In this document: in pieces, positions 27,756 through 39,314 of the stretch
How the letters are laid out: the number at the start of each line of letters is the position of its first letter
Position numbering within the stretch: the first letter of the stretch is position 1
NCBI GenBank assembly: GCA_903789495.1
Contig: CAIFEQ010000003.1
Coordinates: 1-64,000 of the forward strand
DNA from: an uncultured Erysipelotrichaceae bacterium
GTDB lineage: Bacteria > Bacillota_I > Bacilli_A > Erysipelotrichales > Erysipelotrichaceae
Direction of reading: 5' to 3'
DNA: 64,000 bases
Program-made: the position numbers and the translations under genes
Notes under the pieces: generated by a model
Databases searched by the model: none
Told to the model about the DNA's origin: nothing
Seen by the model: only the letters and a program-made list of their open reading frames with translations

Positions 27756-28412
27756 CTATTTCTGATGATCATGCCGGCGCACAAAGTTCGTCACAAAGGA
27801 TGACTCAGTATCCGGAACAGGGATGCCGTTCTTCCTTCCTTCTGCAAAACACTGCATCATCCAGATCATGTTACGGGCCAGATTCCGCATGGTCTGCAGG
27901 CCTTCTTCATCCTGTTCAGCCTCTTGTGCATACAGGCCATGGACATTGTTCCAGTATGTCGAACCGGCGATCGGCATCTGGGCAATGCTGAAGTATTTGT
28001 TCAGTGCATCCAGAGCAGCCGTGGTACCGCCGCGGCGGGCGACCGCTACCGCTGCCCCCGGTTTGAAGGCAAAAGCCGGATAGATTTCGTCTGTCCCATT
28101 GCTGTAGAACGCCCGGTCCAGGAAAGAGAAGATCCGGCCGCTGGGATGCGCAAAATAGGTCGGGGTGGCAAAGACAAAACCATCCGCCTGGTATGCCTTT
28201 TCGACAAAGGCATTGACTCCGTCCTCCCGGAAGACACAGCGGCCCGTCTTCTGACACTGATTGCACTGCAGACAGTCGGCGATCGGCTTCCCGCCAAGCT
28301 GAATGACCTCGGTTTCCACACCCTGCCCGGCAAAGATGCGGATCATCTCTTCCAGAGCCCGCATCGTGGTGCCGTGTGTATGTGAGCTTCCGTTGACCAG
28401 CAAGACTCTCAT
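27756..28412 (-). CDS. flavodoxin-like NAD(P)H-dependent oxidoreductase
   Basis: 218 residues with the flavodoxin fold of the NADPH-dependent FMN reductase/iron-sulfur flavoprotein group. MRVLLVNGSSHTHGTT is the FMN phosphate loop, and ATPTYFAHPSG is the isoalloxazine-side loop. A CLQCNQCQKTGRC block (about 47-59) resembles the Cys cluster of iron-sulfur flavoproteins. Two adjacent ATGs exist; the second has GAGG at better distance. It is last in the operon with the VOC and old-yellow-enzyme-like genes and may pass electrons within that pathway. Confidence 0.85.
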   Translation of the reverse strand: MRVLLVNGSSHTHGTTMRALEEMIRIFAGQGVETEVIQLGGKPIADCLQCNQCQKTGRCVFREDGVNAFVEKAYQADGFVFATPTYFAHPSGRIFSFLDRAFYSNGTDEIYPAFAFKPGAAVAVARRGGTTAALDALNKYFSIAQMPIAGSTYWNNVHGLYAQEAEQDEEGLQTMRNLARNMIWMMQCFAEGRKNGIPVPDTESSFVTNFVRRHDHQK

Positions 28413-28425
28413 CATGACCTCTTTC

Positions 28426-28902
28426 CTAAGCTTCCTGAAAGGTGACCAGTTCAATCACCGAACCCCAGGGTGTTTCCGTATACAGCCAGCCCTGGGTCGG
28501 GCTGGTGCCATTTCTGACCGCTTCAATGTACGCAGCAGATTCATACAGTCTGCCGCCGGCAGCCAGGATGTCCAAGGCTGCCTGCTGCAGATTGTCCACA
28601 TAAACGGCAAAGTGCTGCAGACCATAGTCATAGGTATGAGCGGAGGAACGGTGTTTCACACCGTCATAGCAGAACAGTTCCACATTCACACGGCCGCCGA
28701 GGTTCATCACCCGTCTGGCCGTCACGCGGCCGCCTGCCGGCATCCCGAAGCGCTGTTCGTGGACCGCTCCGGTCAGAGGCTCCTGGCTGCGGGTCAGACC
28801 CTTGCAGACAACCTGGCCGGCAAATGCCCGGGCAAAGAAGGCAGAAGCCTGATCCAGATCCGGCACCGTCAAAGCAACGTGATCAATCGTTCTGATTTTC
28901 AT
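28426..28902 (-). CDS. VOC family protein
   Basis: 158 residues, one vicinal-oxygen-chelate unit pair: KIRTIDHVALTVPDLDQASAFF at the start, a central LQHFAVYVD with the second metal-ligand His, and a C-terminal WGSVIELVTF with the last ligand Glu. Members include dioxygenases, glyoxalases and isomerases. No Shine-Dalgarno is seen; the ATG is 9 nt after the upstream stop, so translation is likely coupled. Confidence 0.8.
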   Translation of the reverse strand: MKIRTIDHVALTVPDLDQASAFFARAFAGQVVCKGLTRSQEPLTGAVHEQRFGMPAGGRVTARRVMNLGGRVNVELFCYDGVKHRSSAHTYDYGLQHFAVYVDNLQQAALDILAAGGRLYESAAYIEAVRNGTSPTQGWLYTETPWGSVIELVTFQEA

Positions 28903-28911
28903 GCGGATCGA

Positions 28912-30858
28912 TCAGAAGACACCACTGATTTTCCGAACGGTATCCCAGGCTTCATGCATGCACTGATAGAGCTTTCTGCCTTTTACGGCATCACCGATCA
29001 CGTAGGTTTCCGGGCAGACATGTTTCAGTTCTTCCACGATTCCGGTTCTTGCCTTCAGGCCAAGCGCCGCAATGACCGTATCGGCAGGGACTCTTTCTTC
29101 CTGTCCTTTATGGGTAAAGACAACCGAATCCGGATTGATTCTGGTAACCTTGGCCTCGGTGATGATCGTGGCATTGGCTGCAGCCAGTTCTCCTTTGATG
29201 GCGATCTGCGACAGCGGTTCATCCTGGTTGACAATCTCCGGCAGCATCTCGAGTATCGTCACTTCTCTGCCTGCTCTGGCCAGGCCAAGGGCAGTTTCCG
29301 AACCGACCAGCCCGCCGCCGATGATCACGGTCCGCCCCTTCACGCTGTCCTGATCCAGCAGGGCTTTTTCCGCCGTGATCGTATTTTCGATGCCGGGGAT
29401 CGGCGGCACCATATAGTCCGAACCGACGGCCAGGATGACCGCATCAGGCTTCAGGGAAGCCAGCAGTTCCGGCGTTGCTTCGGTCTTCATCAGAATCCGG
29501 ATATCGGCCTTTTTCACCTGGCGTTCCAGCCACAGCAGATCCCCGCGGGCCCCGCGCTTGAATGCCGGCTCCGAAGCTTCCAGGAAATGCCCGCCAAGTC
29601 GGTCCGAACGCTCAATCAGGGTTACATCGTGACCATACAGTCTGGCGACCCGGGCCGCCTCCATGCCGGCCATCCCGCCGCCGACCACGACGATGTTCTT
29701 CCGGTCTTTTTCCGCCACCGGTACGATCTGATATTCCCGTTCCTGTCCGGCCTGAGGATTCACCTCGCAGCGGATCGGGCATCCGCGGAAGAACAGCGAA
29801 ATGCAGCCTTCATGGCCGCGCATGCAGGGACGGATGTCTTCCAGACGGCCTTCCCGGATCTTCTGCGGCATATAGGGATCGGCCAGCAGCGGGCGGGCAA
29901 AAGCAACCAGATCGGCCTCATCACGTTCCAGTGCCTGTTCAGCCGTTTCCGCCGTCAGGGCGTTGACCGTTACCACCTTGCATTTGGTCACGGCTTTCTT
30001 CATGGCCGCAGCCAGATTCACAATGGCATGTTCCGGTCTGTACATCGGCGAAATCATCCAGGTTGCCATGGTTTCGTAGTTGCCGACCGATACGTGAATA
30101 TAATCGATATAATCTTCAAACATTCTGCCGAAGGCACAGGCATCTTCGATAGTCATGCCGCCTTCGACCTTTTCTTCCCCGCTGATGCGGAAGCCGACCA
30201 GGAAGTCATTGCCGACCTTGGCTCTGACCTTCTTCAGGATGTTCAGGGCAAATCTGGCCCGGTTCTCCCGGCTGCCGCCGTACTCATCGGTCCGCCTGTT
30301 GGTGTACTGACTAAGGAATTCACAGATCAGGTAGCCATGAGCACCATGAATTTCCACGCCATCAAAGCCGGCCTGTCTGGCTCTTCTGGCCGCTTCTGCA
30401 AAAGCATCTTCAATGGCGACAATTTCATCGTGTTCCAAGGCCCTCGGCAGGCGGCCGACAAATTTGCTGGCCACGGCAGAGGGTGCCAGGGCTTCCTGCC
30501 CGGGTACTGCCGCTGCATTGGCCTGCAGGCCGCCATGCGAAAGCTGCAGAATGGCCAGGGCACCATTGCGCTTGATGGCCTCCGCCAGCCGGTATTTGCC
30601 GGCAATGAGCTGGTCGCTGTACAGCCCGCTGGACGCCAGAGAAGAACGGGACGCGATCTGATCGACAAAGGTGTTTTCGACCACGATGGCGGCGGCGCCG
30701 CCCTTGGCTCTTTCAGCATAGTAATCGCACATCTCCTGGGTGGTATCCCCGAGCGGGGTCGAAAGTCTGGTTTCCATGGCCGCCATCATGATGCGGTTCT
30801 TAAAGGTGCAGGGGCCAACCTGAAGCGGCGTCATAATGACGTTTTCTGCAGTGTTCAT
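28912..30858 (-). CDS. NADH:flavin oxidoreductase, 2,4-dienoyl-CoA reductase-like, variant Fe-S motif
   Basis: 648 residues. An old-yellow-enzyme TIM barrel (1-340; HGAHGYL at 171-177) is followed by an Fe-S motif and an FAD/NAD domain (VVGGGMAGMEAA at about 391-402 and a second GGGLVGSE). Relatives reduce activated C=C bonds: dienoyl-CoA reductase FadH, BaiCD/BaiH bile acid enzymes, enoate reductases. The canonical C-x2-C-x3-C-x11-C becomes C345-x6-C352-x7-C360-x3-C364: the second Cys is Gly348 and an extra Cys appears at 360. The start has AAGGAG; a longer frame upstream overlaps the promoter. First gene of a three-gene operon. Confidence 0.9.
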   Translation of the reverse strand: MNTAENVIMTPLQVGPCTFKNRIMMAAMETRLSTPLGDTTQEMCDYYAERAKGGAAAIVVENTFVDQIASRSSLASSGLYSDQLIAGKYRLAEAIKRNGALAILQLSHGGLQANAAAVPGQEALAPSAVASKFVGRLPRALEHDEIVAIEDAFAEAARRARQAGFDGVEIHGAHGYLICEFLSQYTNRRTDEYGGSRENRARFALNILKKVRAKVGNDFLVGFRISGEEKVEGGMTIEDACAFGRMFEDYIDYIHVSVGNYETMATWMISPMYRPEHAIVNLAAAMKKAVTKCKVVTVNALTAETAEQALERDEADLVAFARPLLADPYMPQKIREGRLEDIRPCMRGHEGCISLFFRGCPIRCEVNPQAGQEREYQIVPVAEKDRKNIVVVGGGMAGMEAARVARLYGHDVTLIERSDRLGGHFLEASEPAFKRGARGDLLWLERQVKKADIRILMKTEATPELLASLKPDAVILAVGSDYMVPPIPGIENTITAEKALLDQDSVKGRTVIIGGGLVGSETALGLARAGREVTILEMLPEIVNQDEPLSQIAIKGELAAANATIITEAKVTRINPDSVVFTHKGQEERVPADTVIAALGLKARTGIVEELKHVCPETYVIGDAVKGRKLYQCMHEAWDTVRKISGVF

Positions 30859-30950
30859 CTTTTTCTCCTTCTTTGCTGCGCATTCCTTCGTGTGATCGGA
30901 ATCAGCTAAATACATGATAGTAATCCGCTGTCCGGCTTTGTCAATAAAAA

Positions 30951-31074
30951 TTCTCATATTTTCTCATTAAATCTTACTAAAACGAGAATATTATCAGTCA
31001 GTCTGGAGAATTGCTGAAAATTCATTGCATTATGACGGAATCAGAATGATAATTTCAGGTGAGAATCTGAGAAA
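30951..31074. promoter_or_regulatory. divergent control region with five TGAGAA-type boxes
   Basis: TTCTCAT occurs at 30951 and 30961, exactly 10 bp apart. CGAGAAT is at 30983, TGAGAAT at 31060 and TGAGAAA at 31068. Promoter for the regulator: TTGCAT (31025-31030)-N17-GATAAT (31048-31053). On the minus strand TTGACA lies about 19 bp before TATCAT for the oxidoreductase operon. No -24/-12 sigma-54 promoter was found. Confidence 0.55.
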
Positions 31075-31087
31075 AAGGAGTATTACC

Positions 31088-33109
31088 ATGAACCTTCAGG
31101 CCCCCTTTGACCGGAAAGCCACAGAAAAAGCCTGGCAGTACTACATCCATGATCGGCACGCCCTGCCAGCGCAGATCGACGGCGTACGCCCTTTCATTGT
31201 CGATTCCTGGCGGCGTTCCCTGAACAGCAGCCGGATCAGCAGGTCCCGGCCTCTGAAACTGTCCGAAGCAAAGCTGCAGTCCCTCCTGCAGGAAAATGCC
31301 CTGCTGATGCAGATTGCCTATCCTTATCTTCTGCATTTTTATCAGTGGATTGATAATTCTCACCTGCAGATCACGCTGGCAGATAAAAACGGCTTTCAGA
31401 TCGGCAGAATTGATTCGCATGATCTGACGGCATCTGCTTCTTCCGACAGTGCAGGGTCTTCCTTCCAGGCATTCCAGCTGGACAACGGCACGGATTTTTC
31501 AGAAGCCGCTGCCGGTACAAACGGCATCGGCACTTCCCTGGCCATGCAGCAGCCGGTCATGATCTTCGGCGCGGAGCATTTCCAGTCCCGGTATCATGAT
31601 CTGGCCTGCTATGCTTCCCCGCTCTATGATCCGGCAGGCAGTCTGCTTGGCAGTATCAATATCACAGGGCCCCTGGAAGACTGGGATCCGCTGATCCTGT
31701 GCGTTCTGAAGACTGCCGTCAGCGGCATTGAGAAGGAATTTGAGCTGACCAGAAAGAATGAGCTGCTGGATACCCTGGTGGAATCCTGCGGACAGGGCGT
31801 GATCATGCTGGATGCCCGGGAACACATTCTCTACTGCAACCAGGATGCCGCTCAGCTGCTTCATGCACCGCACGGCCGTCTGACCGGACAGCCGATTGAC
31901 AGGCTGATCCGGACAGACCGGCTGCCAGAAGCCCTCCGGCACTTTGCCCGGCCCCTGACCGATGAGGACTGTACGCTTTACAGTGCCGATGGCCAGCCTG
32001 TCGAAGTCAATCTGACCATCCGGACGGCCGGTCAGGATCCGCATGGCCTGCACAGTATCCTGATCCTGCTCCGTTCACAGAAGGATGTCCATCTGCTGAC
32101 TACGAAACTGGCCGGCTTCACTGCACAGGGCAGCTTTGAGTCCTTTGTCGGAAATTCTCATGGTCTGCAGATGGTCACTGCCATGGGAAAGCTGGCTGCG
32201 GAACGCTCGGTTTCGGTTCTGCTGCTCGGTGAAAAAGGAACCGGCAAGCATATGCTGGCCCAGGCCATTCACAATGAAGGGCCGCAGCCGGAGATGCCTT
32301 TTGTGGAGCTGAACTGTGCCTCCACTCCCACCCCGCTGATGTCGTCTGAGCTCTTCGGAAATGAGGATGAAGAGACCGGTCTGAAGATTCCAGGACGAAT
32401 CCAGCTGGCCGACGGCGGCACGCTGTATCTGGATGAAATCGGCGCTCTGCCGGAACCCCTGCAGAAAAGGCTGGTACAGGTTCTGCAGGATGCGGACAAT
32501 CCGGAAAAGTCGGTCTCTCGATTCCGGCTGATCGCCTCTTCCTCAGCGAATCTGCTGTCTCTGATCCGCAAAGGTGCCTTCCGCGAAGATCTTTACTATC
32601 GGCTGAATGCCCTGACCATCACCATTCCACCGCTGCGTGAGCGGAAGGAAGATATCCCCGTTTTGGCAGAATACTTTTCCCGTCAGATGACCGGTCATCC
32701 GGTACGGCTCGAAGCCGAAGCCAGTGCAGCTCTAGAAGCTTATTCCTGGCCTGGCAATACGCGGGAACTGGAGGAAACCATCCGGCTGTCCATTCACTCT
32801 GCTGCCCAAGAGAGCCTCGCCATTACGGATCTGCCTGTGCAGATTAGCAGTTTCTATTACACCACGCTCATGCTTCAGGAACAGTCTGCCGGCAGCGCAG
32901 CAGACAGGCAGTCTGATGCCGCTCCTGACTCCGGGACAGATACATCGGCTTCTGATGCTATGGCATATTATCAGCTGAGTCAGGCACTGAAGCAAGCTGA
33001 CGGTAACGTGCAGAAAGCTGCTGACATTCTGAACATGCCGCGCAGTTCTCTCTACCGGCGTCTGCGCAGACTGCATATCCGGCCCAAGGATTACCGTCGA
33101 AAGCTGTGA
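31088..33109 (+). CDS. AAA+ transcriptional activator of the AcoR type, lacking GAFTGA
   Basis: 673 residues. A GAF-like sensor with SWRRS and AAGTNGIGTSLA covers about 30-215, a PAS domain about 225-330, an AAA+ domain about 350-590 and a Fis-type HTH at 630-665 (NVQKAADILNMPRSSLYRRLRR). Walker A is GEKGTGKH (381-388) and Walker B TLYLDEIG (445-452). Between ELFG (421-424) and GR (436-437), where sigma-54 activators carry GAFTGA, the sequence is NEDEETGLKIP: the loop is missing and 3 residues shorter. It faces the flavin-oxidoreductase operon and probably regulates it by a sigma-54-independent route. AAGGAG precedes the ATG. Confidence 0.88.
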   Translation: MNLQAPFDRKATEKAWQYYIHDRHALPAQIDGVRPFIVDSWRRSLNSSRISRSRPLKLSEAKLQSLLQENALLMQIAYPYLLHFYQWIDNSHLQITLADKNGFQIGRIDSHDLTASASSDSAGSSFQAFQLDNGTDFSEAAAGTNGIGTSLAMQQPVMIFGAEHFQSRYHDLACYASPLYDPAGSLLGSINITGPLEDWDPLILCVLKTAVSGIEKEFELTRKNELLDTLVESCGQGVIMLDAREHILYCNQDAAQLLHAPHGRLTGQPIDRLIRTDRLPEALRHFARPLTDEDCTLYSADGQPVEVNLTIRTAGQDPHGLHSILILLRSQKDVHLLTTKLAGFTAQGSFESFVGNSHGLQMVTAMGKLAAERSVSVLLLGEKGTGKHMLAQAIHNEGPQPEMPFVELNCASTPTPLMSSELFGNEDEETGLKIPGRIQLADGGTLYLDEIGALPEPLQKRLVQVLQDADNPEKSVSRFRLIASSSANLLSLIRKGAFREDLYYRLNALTITIPPLRERKEDIPVLAEYFSRQMTGHPVRLEAEASAALEAYSWPGNTRELEETIRLSIHSAAQESLAITDLPVQISSFYYTTLMLQEQSAGSAADRQSDAAPDSGTDTSASDAMAYYQLSQALKQADGNVQKAADILNMPRSSLYRRLRRLHIRPKDYRRKL

Positions 33110-38232: not shown

Positions 38233-39189
38233 TTATTTTTTCTTCTTGTGGGAGCGTCCGATCCCGTATTCCCGCATCATGCGGGAGGCCCGGGTCTGGG
38301 TGATATGCAGACCCTTGGCAATCTGATAGGAACTGCCCCAGCGGGCATAGGCCGCTTCCATGATCTGGCGCTTATAGGCATCCACCGCTTCATCAAAGTC
38401 GGCCGGCAGTTCGCTCAGCGTATCCGATCGGGCGGCGGTGATGGTTTCCGGCAGATCGGCCCGGCCGATCTCTTCCTCCCGGGAGATGATCACGGCCCGC
38501 TCCACCACGTTCTCCAGCTCACTGATGTTGCCGGGCCAGTCATACTGCCTGAGCAGGGCTTTGGCCCGGGCCGAGAAATGTTTCTGCATGCCATAGCGCT
38601 TGTTATAGCGCTGCAGGAACTGATTCACGATCTCATCAAAGTCCTCATGCCGGCGGCGCAGCGGGGGAATGTCGAATTCGATGACCCGCAGACTGTAGTA
38701 GAGATCTTCCCGGAACTTGCCCAGCGGGATCTGCTTCTCCAGAGGCAGTGAGGTCGAAGAGATGATCTGTACGCTGGCCGTATGCAGGGTCGAGGTGCCC
38801 CAGCCCCGGTATGTATGCATGGACAGCAATTCCATCACACCGTTCTGCGCATCCATCGGCAGGGCGCCGATCTCATCAATATAAAGAATGCCGCCCTCGG
38901 CTGCCGCCACGGCACCGGGATCGTCGGGATCATCGCCGAACATCATCCGCCCGGCCTGATCGGCCGGAACGGAGAGACAGTGGAAGACCACATACGGACC
39001 CTTGGAACGGTGCGAGGTCTGGTGAATATAGCGGGCCAGGCGGGACTTGCCGCTGCCCCGCTCGCCGGTCAGCAGAATGGCCGAGTCAAAATTGGCAATC
39101 CGTTCAATGGTTGTCCTGATTTCCTGCATGGCTTCACTGCGAAAGACAATCGACTCTTCCGCCGCGGGCTGCTGAACCATTTCCTTCAT
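38233..39189 (-). CDS. AAA+ regulator, TyrR/PspF-like, lacking GAFTGA
   Basis: 318 residues with no sensor domain: an AAA+ ATPase followed by a TyrR-like HTH (YQIAKGLHITQTRASRMMREYGI) and a Lys-rich end. Walker A is GERGSGKS and Walker B ILYIDEIG. Between them the usual ELFG...GAFTGA stretch reads MMFGDDPDDPGAVAAAEGG, so the sigma-54 contact loop is absent, as in TyrR proteins that work with the main sigma factor. The ATG at 39189 has AAGGG at 8 nt; an ATG two codons earlier is possible. The next operon downstream (yjeM and aminopeptidase) is its likely target. Confidence 0.87.
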   Translation of the reverse strand: MKEMVQQPAAEESIVFRSEAMQEIRTTIERIANFDSAILLTGERGSGKSRLARYIHQTSHRSKGPYVVFHCLSVPADQAGRMMFGDDPDDPGAVAAAEGGILYIDEIGALPMDAQNGVMELLSMHTYRGWGTSTLHTASVQIISSTSLPLEKQIPLGKFREDLYYSLRVIEFDIPPLRRRHEDFDEIVNQFLQRYNKRYGMQKHFSARAKALLRQYDWPGNISELENVVERAVIISREEEIGRADLPETITAARSDTLSELPADFDEAVDAYKRQIMEAAYARWGSSYQIAKGLHITQTRASRMMREYGIGRSHKKKK

Positions 39190-39314
39190 GAACATTTCCC
39201 TTACTGTTCTTATTTTAACATGCTTCCCCTTTCCGGCCAGCCCGTCTCCGGCGGCCCGGCAGGACCCTCAGGAAGATCCGTTTTTCTTCTTTTCCGGGAA
39301 AATGCAGAAGGCTG

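Follow-up and report, generated by a model that had tools for sequence, protein, structure and literature searches.

The protein encoded at positions 31,088–33,109 of the 64,000-nt stretch of DNA analysed here (the window), from a gut-type Erysipelotrichaceae bacterium, is very probably a sigma-54-independent, DhaR-like activator that works through sigma-A RNA polymerase on the divergent OYE/BaiCD-like reductase operon. GAFTGA-less, sigma-70-dependent relatives have been published (TyrR, DhaR, HupR, VpsR and Caulobacter NtrC), so this kind of regulator is already known, and the regulator is well supported as a new example of it. The loop-less family, its target and its candidate operator appear to be undescribed, and a search of the papers available found no mention of GAFTGA together with Erysipelotrichaceae.

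Results

An enhancer-binding-type AAA+ regulator without the GAFTGA loop

The reading frame of the regulator is open throughout, and a ribosome site, AAAAAGGAG, is found just 5' of its ATG. Pfam searches detected GAF, PAS and Sigma54_activat domains (134 bits for the last), followed by an AAA lid and a Fis-type helix-turn-helix (Table 1). As the initial annotation had stated, Walker A and Walker B are intact in the alignment, and both arginine fingers and sensor II (WPGNTREL) are also in place, which gives the protein the complete PF00158 AAA+ core of the sigma-54-dependent enhancer-binding proteins (EBPs). In the predicted structure (mean pLDDT 82), the AAA+ part superposes on FleQ with a Z score of 27.6.

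GAFTGA in the L1 loop, a feature of functional sigma-54-dependent EBPs, is missing, and the protein instead has what is typical of GAFTGA-less EBP relatives, an EBP-type AAA+ domain with L1 deleted or replaced. The FleQ segment FGHEKGAFTGAITSRAGRF aligns with FGNEDE-ETGL--KIPGRI in the regulator, from which the central phenylalanine of the motif is absent. The distance from FG to GGT is 23 residues in the regulator and in E. coli DhaR and 26 residues in FleQ, so the replacement is three residues shorter, as first noted from the sequence. GAFTGA is also missing in all three orthologues described below, whose loops are 2, 5 and 8 residues shorter than that of FleQ, and its absence from the regulator is therefore not due to chance. 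An AAA+ ring without the GAFTGA loop should no longer remodel sigma-54, as is established for the family, and the same should hold for the ring of the regulator.

Table 1 Features of the regulator gene, the intergenic region and the divergent operon
Feature	Position in the window	Strand	Basis
NADPH-dependent FMN reductase-like flavoprotein, probable third gene of target operon	27756..28454	-	Pfam
Glyoxalase/VOC-fold protein, probable second gene of target operon	28426..28902	-	Pfam
OYE/BaiCD-like flavin oxidoreductase, probable target (648 aa from ATG at 30858)	28912..30858	-	Domain and family models, conserved pairing
Sigma-A-like predicted promoter of divergent reductase gene, TTGACA-16-TACTAT	30917..30944	-	Promoter scan
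Candidate operator AATCTTACTAAAACGAGAAT, 11/14 match to common inverted repeat	30970..30989		Repeat comparison
DhaR-like regulator (N-terminal GAF and PAS sensor, AAA+ without GAFTGA, Fis-type HTH; 673 aa)	31088..33109	+	ORF, Pfam, family model, structure
GAF domain (residues 126–207)	31463..31708	+	Pfam
PAS domain (residues 226–315)	31763..32032	+	Pfam
AAA+ sigma-54 interaction domain PF00158 (Sigma54_activat, residues 354–511)	32147..32620	+	Pfam
Walker A GEKGTGKH, intact	32228..32251	+	Alignment
L1 loop position, GNEDEETGLKIPGR replacing the GAFTGA stretch, 3 residues shorter than FleQ	32357..32398	+	Alignment
Walker B TLYLDE, intact in window copy, degenerate in three orthologues	32420..32437	+	Alignment
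Arginine fingers FREDLYYRLN, both present, second one gone from orthologues	32579..32608	+	Alignment
Fis-type helix-turn-helix (HTH_8, residues 630–661)	32975..33070	+	Pfam

Relationship to DhaR and other known regulators

The nearest named family model was DhaR, which matched residues 31–669 with 303 bits, below its cut-off of 551. The sensor part of the predicted structure (residues 33–331) has the GAF-PAS fold of DhaR(N) and superposes on that of E. coli DhaR with a Z score of 23.9. By its architecture and its sensor fold, the regulator is better described as DhaR-like than simply as AcoR-type, the label of the initial annotation.

E. coli DhaR (b1201) has the same domain order over its full length, carries an equally long segment in place of the GAFTGA stretch, and is likewise divergent from the operon that it controls, dhaKLM in that organism. 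The two proteins are only 25% identical, however, the target here is a flavin reductase, and Walker B and the arginine fingers are degenerate in DhaR but intact in the regulator. The search for the dihydroxyacetone kinase gene (Dak1) returned none in the four regulator-bearing draft genomes and matches in the controls; as far as these drafts go, the regulator is therefore not DhaR itself. AcoR-type sigma-54 activators of Clostridia and Deltaproteobacteria (e.g., Desulfofundulus, L067) resemble it over the full length (~28–32% identity) and share its plan of sensor, AAA+ and HTH, but they keep GAFTGA in a loop four residues longer.

TyrR and VpsR, also GAFTGA-less EBP relatives (PMC3162934, PMC10274813), were further points of comparison, and VpsR has been reported to regulate sigma-70 promoters (PMC10274813). 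Francke and colleagues describe TyrR, DhaR and HupR as EBP paralogues in which small deletions removed the sigma-54 contact and which became sigma-70 dependent; they put the number of homologues with a deviating motif at around 110, some of them from species that lack sigma-54 (PMC3162934). The NtrC proteins of Caulobacter and Rhodobacter capsulatus lack GAFTGA too and act at sigma-70 promoters, and in Caulobacter NtrC the Walker A and B residues are required (PMC10274813). Both NtrC proteins differ from the regulator in being two-component response regulators with a receiver domain and no GAF-PAS sensor. TyrR and VpsR have sensor domains and targets other than those of the regulator.

Conserved pairing with a flavin oxidoreductase

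Searches of the genus, family and order identified three orthologues that are 37–40% identical to the regulator; named copies are those of a goat-cecum Erysipelotrichaceae genome, of Traorella massiliensis and of a Solobacterium genome. A contig scan with the single sequence had returned no relatives, whereas the alignment-based scan did find them; a plasmid similarity search gave short matches only, mostly to flavin oxidoreductases. All three orthologues are divergent from a flavin oxidoreductase 63–74% identical to the product of 28912–30858, and each of the four genomes retains both the HTH and the reductase pairing. Of the 315 genomes of the order, 4 carry the regulator, and these belong to the five in which a close reductase occurs (p = 1e-8); in G079, the remaining one, the reductase gene has no regulator of this kind next to it. 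This conserved pairing, in four of the five genomes, makes the reductase the likely target.

The reductase scored 475 bits against the BaiCD family model, under the BaiCD cut-off. In both the reductase and its close relatives, the iron-sulfur cysteine motif reads CMRGHEGC. The arrangement usual for iron-sulfur enzymes of this family, C-x2-C-x3-C, contains one more cysteine, and one cluster ligand may thus be replaced in this reductase.

Intergenic promoters and a candidate operator

The promoter scan predicted a sigma-A-like promoter for the divergent reductase gene, in agreement with the promoter type proposed initially. The -24/-12 promoter whose presence upstream of the target operon would have spoken for sigma-54 was looked for and was absent from the intergenic region of the window (best match 7/10). 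The best matches in the four intergenic regions were 6–7/10, and those in several rpoN-positive genomes of the genus were 9–10/10.

The four intergenic regions have in common the inverted repeat ATTCTCA-N6-TGAGAAT, which is exact in G137, matches at 13 of 14 positions in G157, is degenerate in the window (11/14) and is near absent in G018 (9/14). When the best palindrome was sought de novo, the same repeat came up; one of 200 shuffled sets scored as high, and none of 200 did so when G018 was left out and three loci were used. As G137 and G157 are similar DNA, these regions amount to fewer than four independent cases. In G137, the intergenic site is the sole exact match to the repeat in the whole genome. 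The repeat adjoins the predicted sigma-A-like promoters on their upstream side. In G137 and G157, where the promoters read TTG-17-TATAAT, its centre precedes the predicted start of the reductase transcript by 57.5 bases; in the window it lies at -69.5. Further half-sites are found next to the start of the regulator gene itself.

Sigma-54 in the genome and in the genus

The genome that contains the window (2.1 Mb, 95% complete, 60 contigs) was searched for rpoN, as the initial annotation had proposed, with the sigma-54 DNA-binding family PF04552. No rpoN was found in this draft, in which a gene could have been missed because of its incompleteness and its number of contigs; E. coli, B. subtilis, Caulobacter and Bacteroides, used as controls, all gave matches. 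The genome encodes three EBP-like proteins scoring above 100 bits, and all three lack GAFTGA (31088–33109, 38233–39195 and one on another contig).

Among 60 sampled genomes of the genus, 8 had an rpoN match. GAFTGA EBPs and rpoN occurred together in 7 of them, GAFTGA EBPs alone in 2, rpoN alone in 1 and neither in 50, which shows that GAFTGA EBPs track rpoN within the genus (Fisher p = 7e-7). G018, which carries one of the loop-less orthologues, has rpoN, and the loss of the loop is thus not simply tied to the loss of sigma-54. G157 (99% complete, 9 contigs) has a loop-less orthologue and no convincing rpoN. Its weak rpoN matches were discounted, as they comprise five copies with identical scores, in 324-aa frames that cover part of the domain only; they are probably an insertion-sequence protein.

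Two genomes without detected rpoN, G031 and G063, encode GAFTGA-like activators (GYYTGA at L018 and GAFTGA at L036, respectively), both on short contigs, so that contamination or incompleteness is possible. Where rpoN occurs in this mostly rpoN-less genus, it adjoins one GAFTGA activator near a common transporter operon (L153, L154, L155). On the rpoN side of this pair, G040 and G013 have different neighbouring genes, an arrangement that suggests a mobile cassette comprising the sigma factor, the activator and its target.

The second EBP-like protein of the window's genome (38233–39195, minus strand) is a 320-aa AAA+ regulator that has no sensor domain and weakly matches the HTH_50 helix-turn-helix family. 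Its second arginine finger and its sensor II arginine are replaced by serine, and genes for an amino-acid permease and an M18 aminopeptidase follow downstream of it on the same strand. The third (L053, contig C2, 8154–10058; 634 aa) has a degenerate Walker A, GPQGVERD, and adjoins genes resembling those of sugar-acid breakdown. Degenerate proteins like it are encoded by at least five further genomes of the genus (L022–L025, L027, L044).

Trees and loss of AAA+ residues

A tree of the GAFTGA-less activators, which had been suggested as a check, was built. In full-length trees, the window protein grouped with the three loop-less orthologues at 99% SH-aLRT, DhaR was unplaced, and the full-length relatives outside this four-protein group retain GAFTGA. 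The AAA+ tree, built with the loop columns removed, placed the window protein, the three orthologues and E. coli DhaR together (99/91) on long branches. We did not take this grouping as proof, since long branches meet in it and the full-length trees leave DhaR unplaced. With the placement of DhaR uncertain, one and two losses of the loop are not separable.

In the orthologues, Walker B reads LVE or LDH for LDE and the second arginine finger is lost, so that only the window copy has a full ATPase site. This distribution of residues, on long branches, suggests that the loop may have been lost first and the ATPase later.

Discussion

The absence of a detected rpoN, the absence of a -24/-12 element and the lack of GAFTGA in all three EBP-like proteins of the genome give good support to the view, already put forward in the initial annotation, that the regulator has left sigma-54 control. 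In the mechanism that we propose, the GAF-PAS module would sense a small molecule, possibly the substrate or product of the reductase. The regulator would bind the inverted repeat around position 30979, as its conservation at related loci suggests, and, by analogy with DhaR and TyrR, the bound protein would help sigma-A RNA polymerase to start the divergent reductase operon. Nucleotide binding probably serves assembly or switching, and the hydrolysis site is complete in the sequence of the window copy. Activation rather than repression is what the position of the repeat, taken by itself, would suggest.

The regulator may instead act at sigma-A promoters mainly as a repressor of the reductase operon, of its own gene or of both, released by its ligand and comparable to TyrR at some promoters. 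The site between the divergent genes and the half-sites beside the regulator's own start would fit such a role, and Caulobacter NtrC, which also lacks GAFTGA, acts as a repressor at some promoters, perhaps through competition with other activators (PMC10274813). However, the repeat in the window, in G137 and in G157 precedes the -35 element of the best reductase promoter and does not cover its -10 or start, and we regard repression as the main function as unlikely. Continued dependence on sigma-54 would require an rpoN gene in the 5% of the genome that the assembly lacks and a loop in which ETG keeps the contact. The draft state of the genome and the rpoN matches elsewhere in the genus leave some room for this, but the motif has lost its central phenylalanine and three residues of length, and changes of this kind in the GAFTGA loop mostly abolish activity (PMC3162934). 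Together with the lack of a -24/-12 element and the near-complete G157, in which a loop-less orthologue occurs without a convincing rpoN, this makes sigma-54 dependence very improbable. That the gene is nonfunctional and decaying toward loss might be read from the progressive loss of AAA+ residues and the long branches among the orthologues. It is extremely improbable given an open frame of 673 aa, a window copy that retains all catalytic AAA+ residues, and the HTH and reductase pairing retained in all four genomes.

A sigma-54-independent activator of the reductase operon offers a clean comparative case of an EBP relative without sigma-54, with four orthologues, one target, one candidate operator, and genomes with and without rpoN. 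It would let one ask what the AAA+ ring does after the sigma-54 contact is gone. The case is also a warning for annotation, as the label 'sigma-54-dependent' tends to be given to such proteins even where the genome lacks sigma-54. Tentatively, the window protein may be a natural intermediate, one that has lost the sigma-54 loop and uses a working ATPase at a sigma-A promoter, and whose orthologues then lost the ATPase. If this possible reading is true, the family would show the order of steps from an enhancer-binding protein to an ordinary activator.
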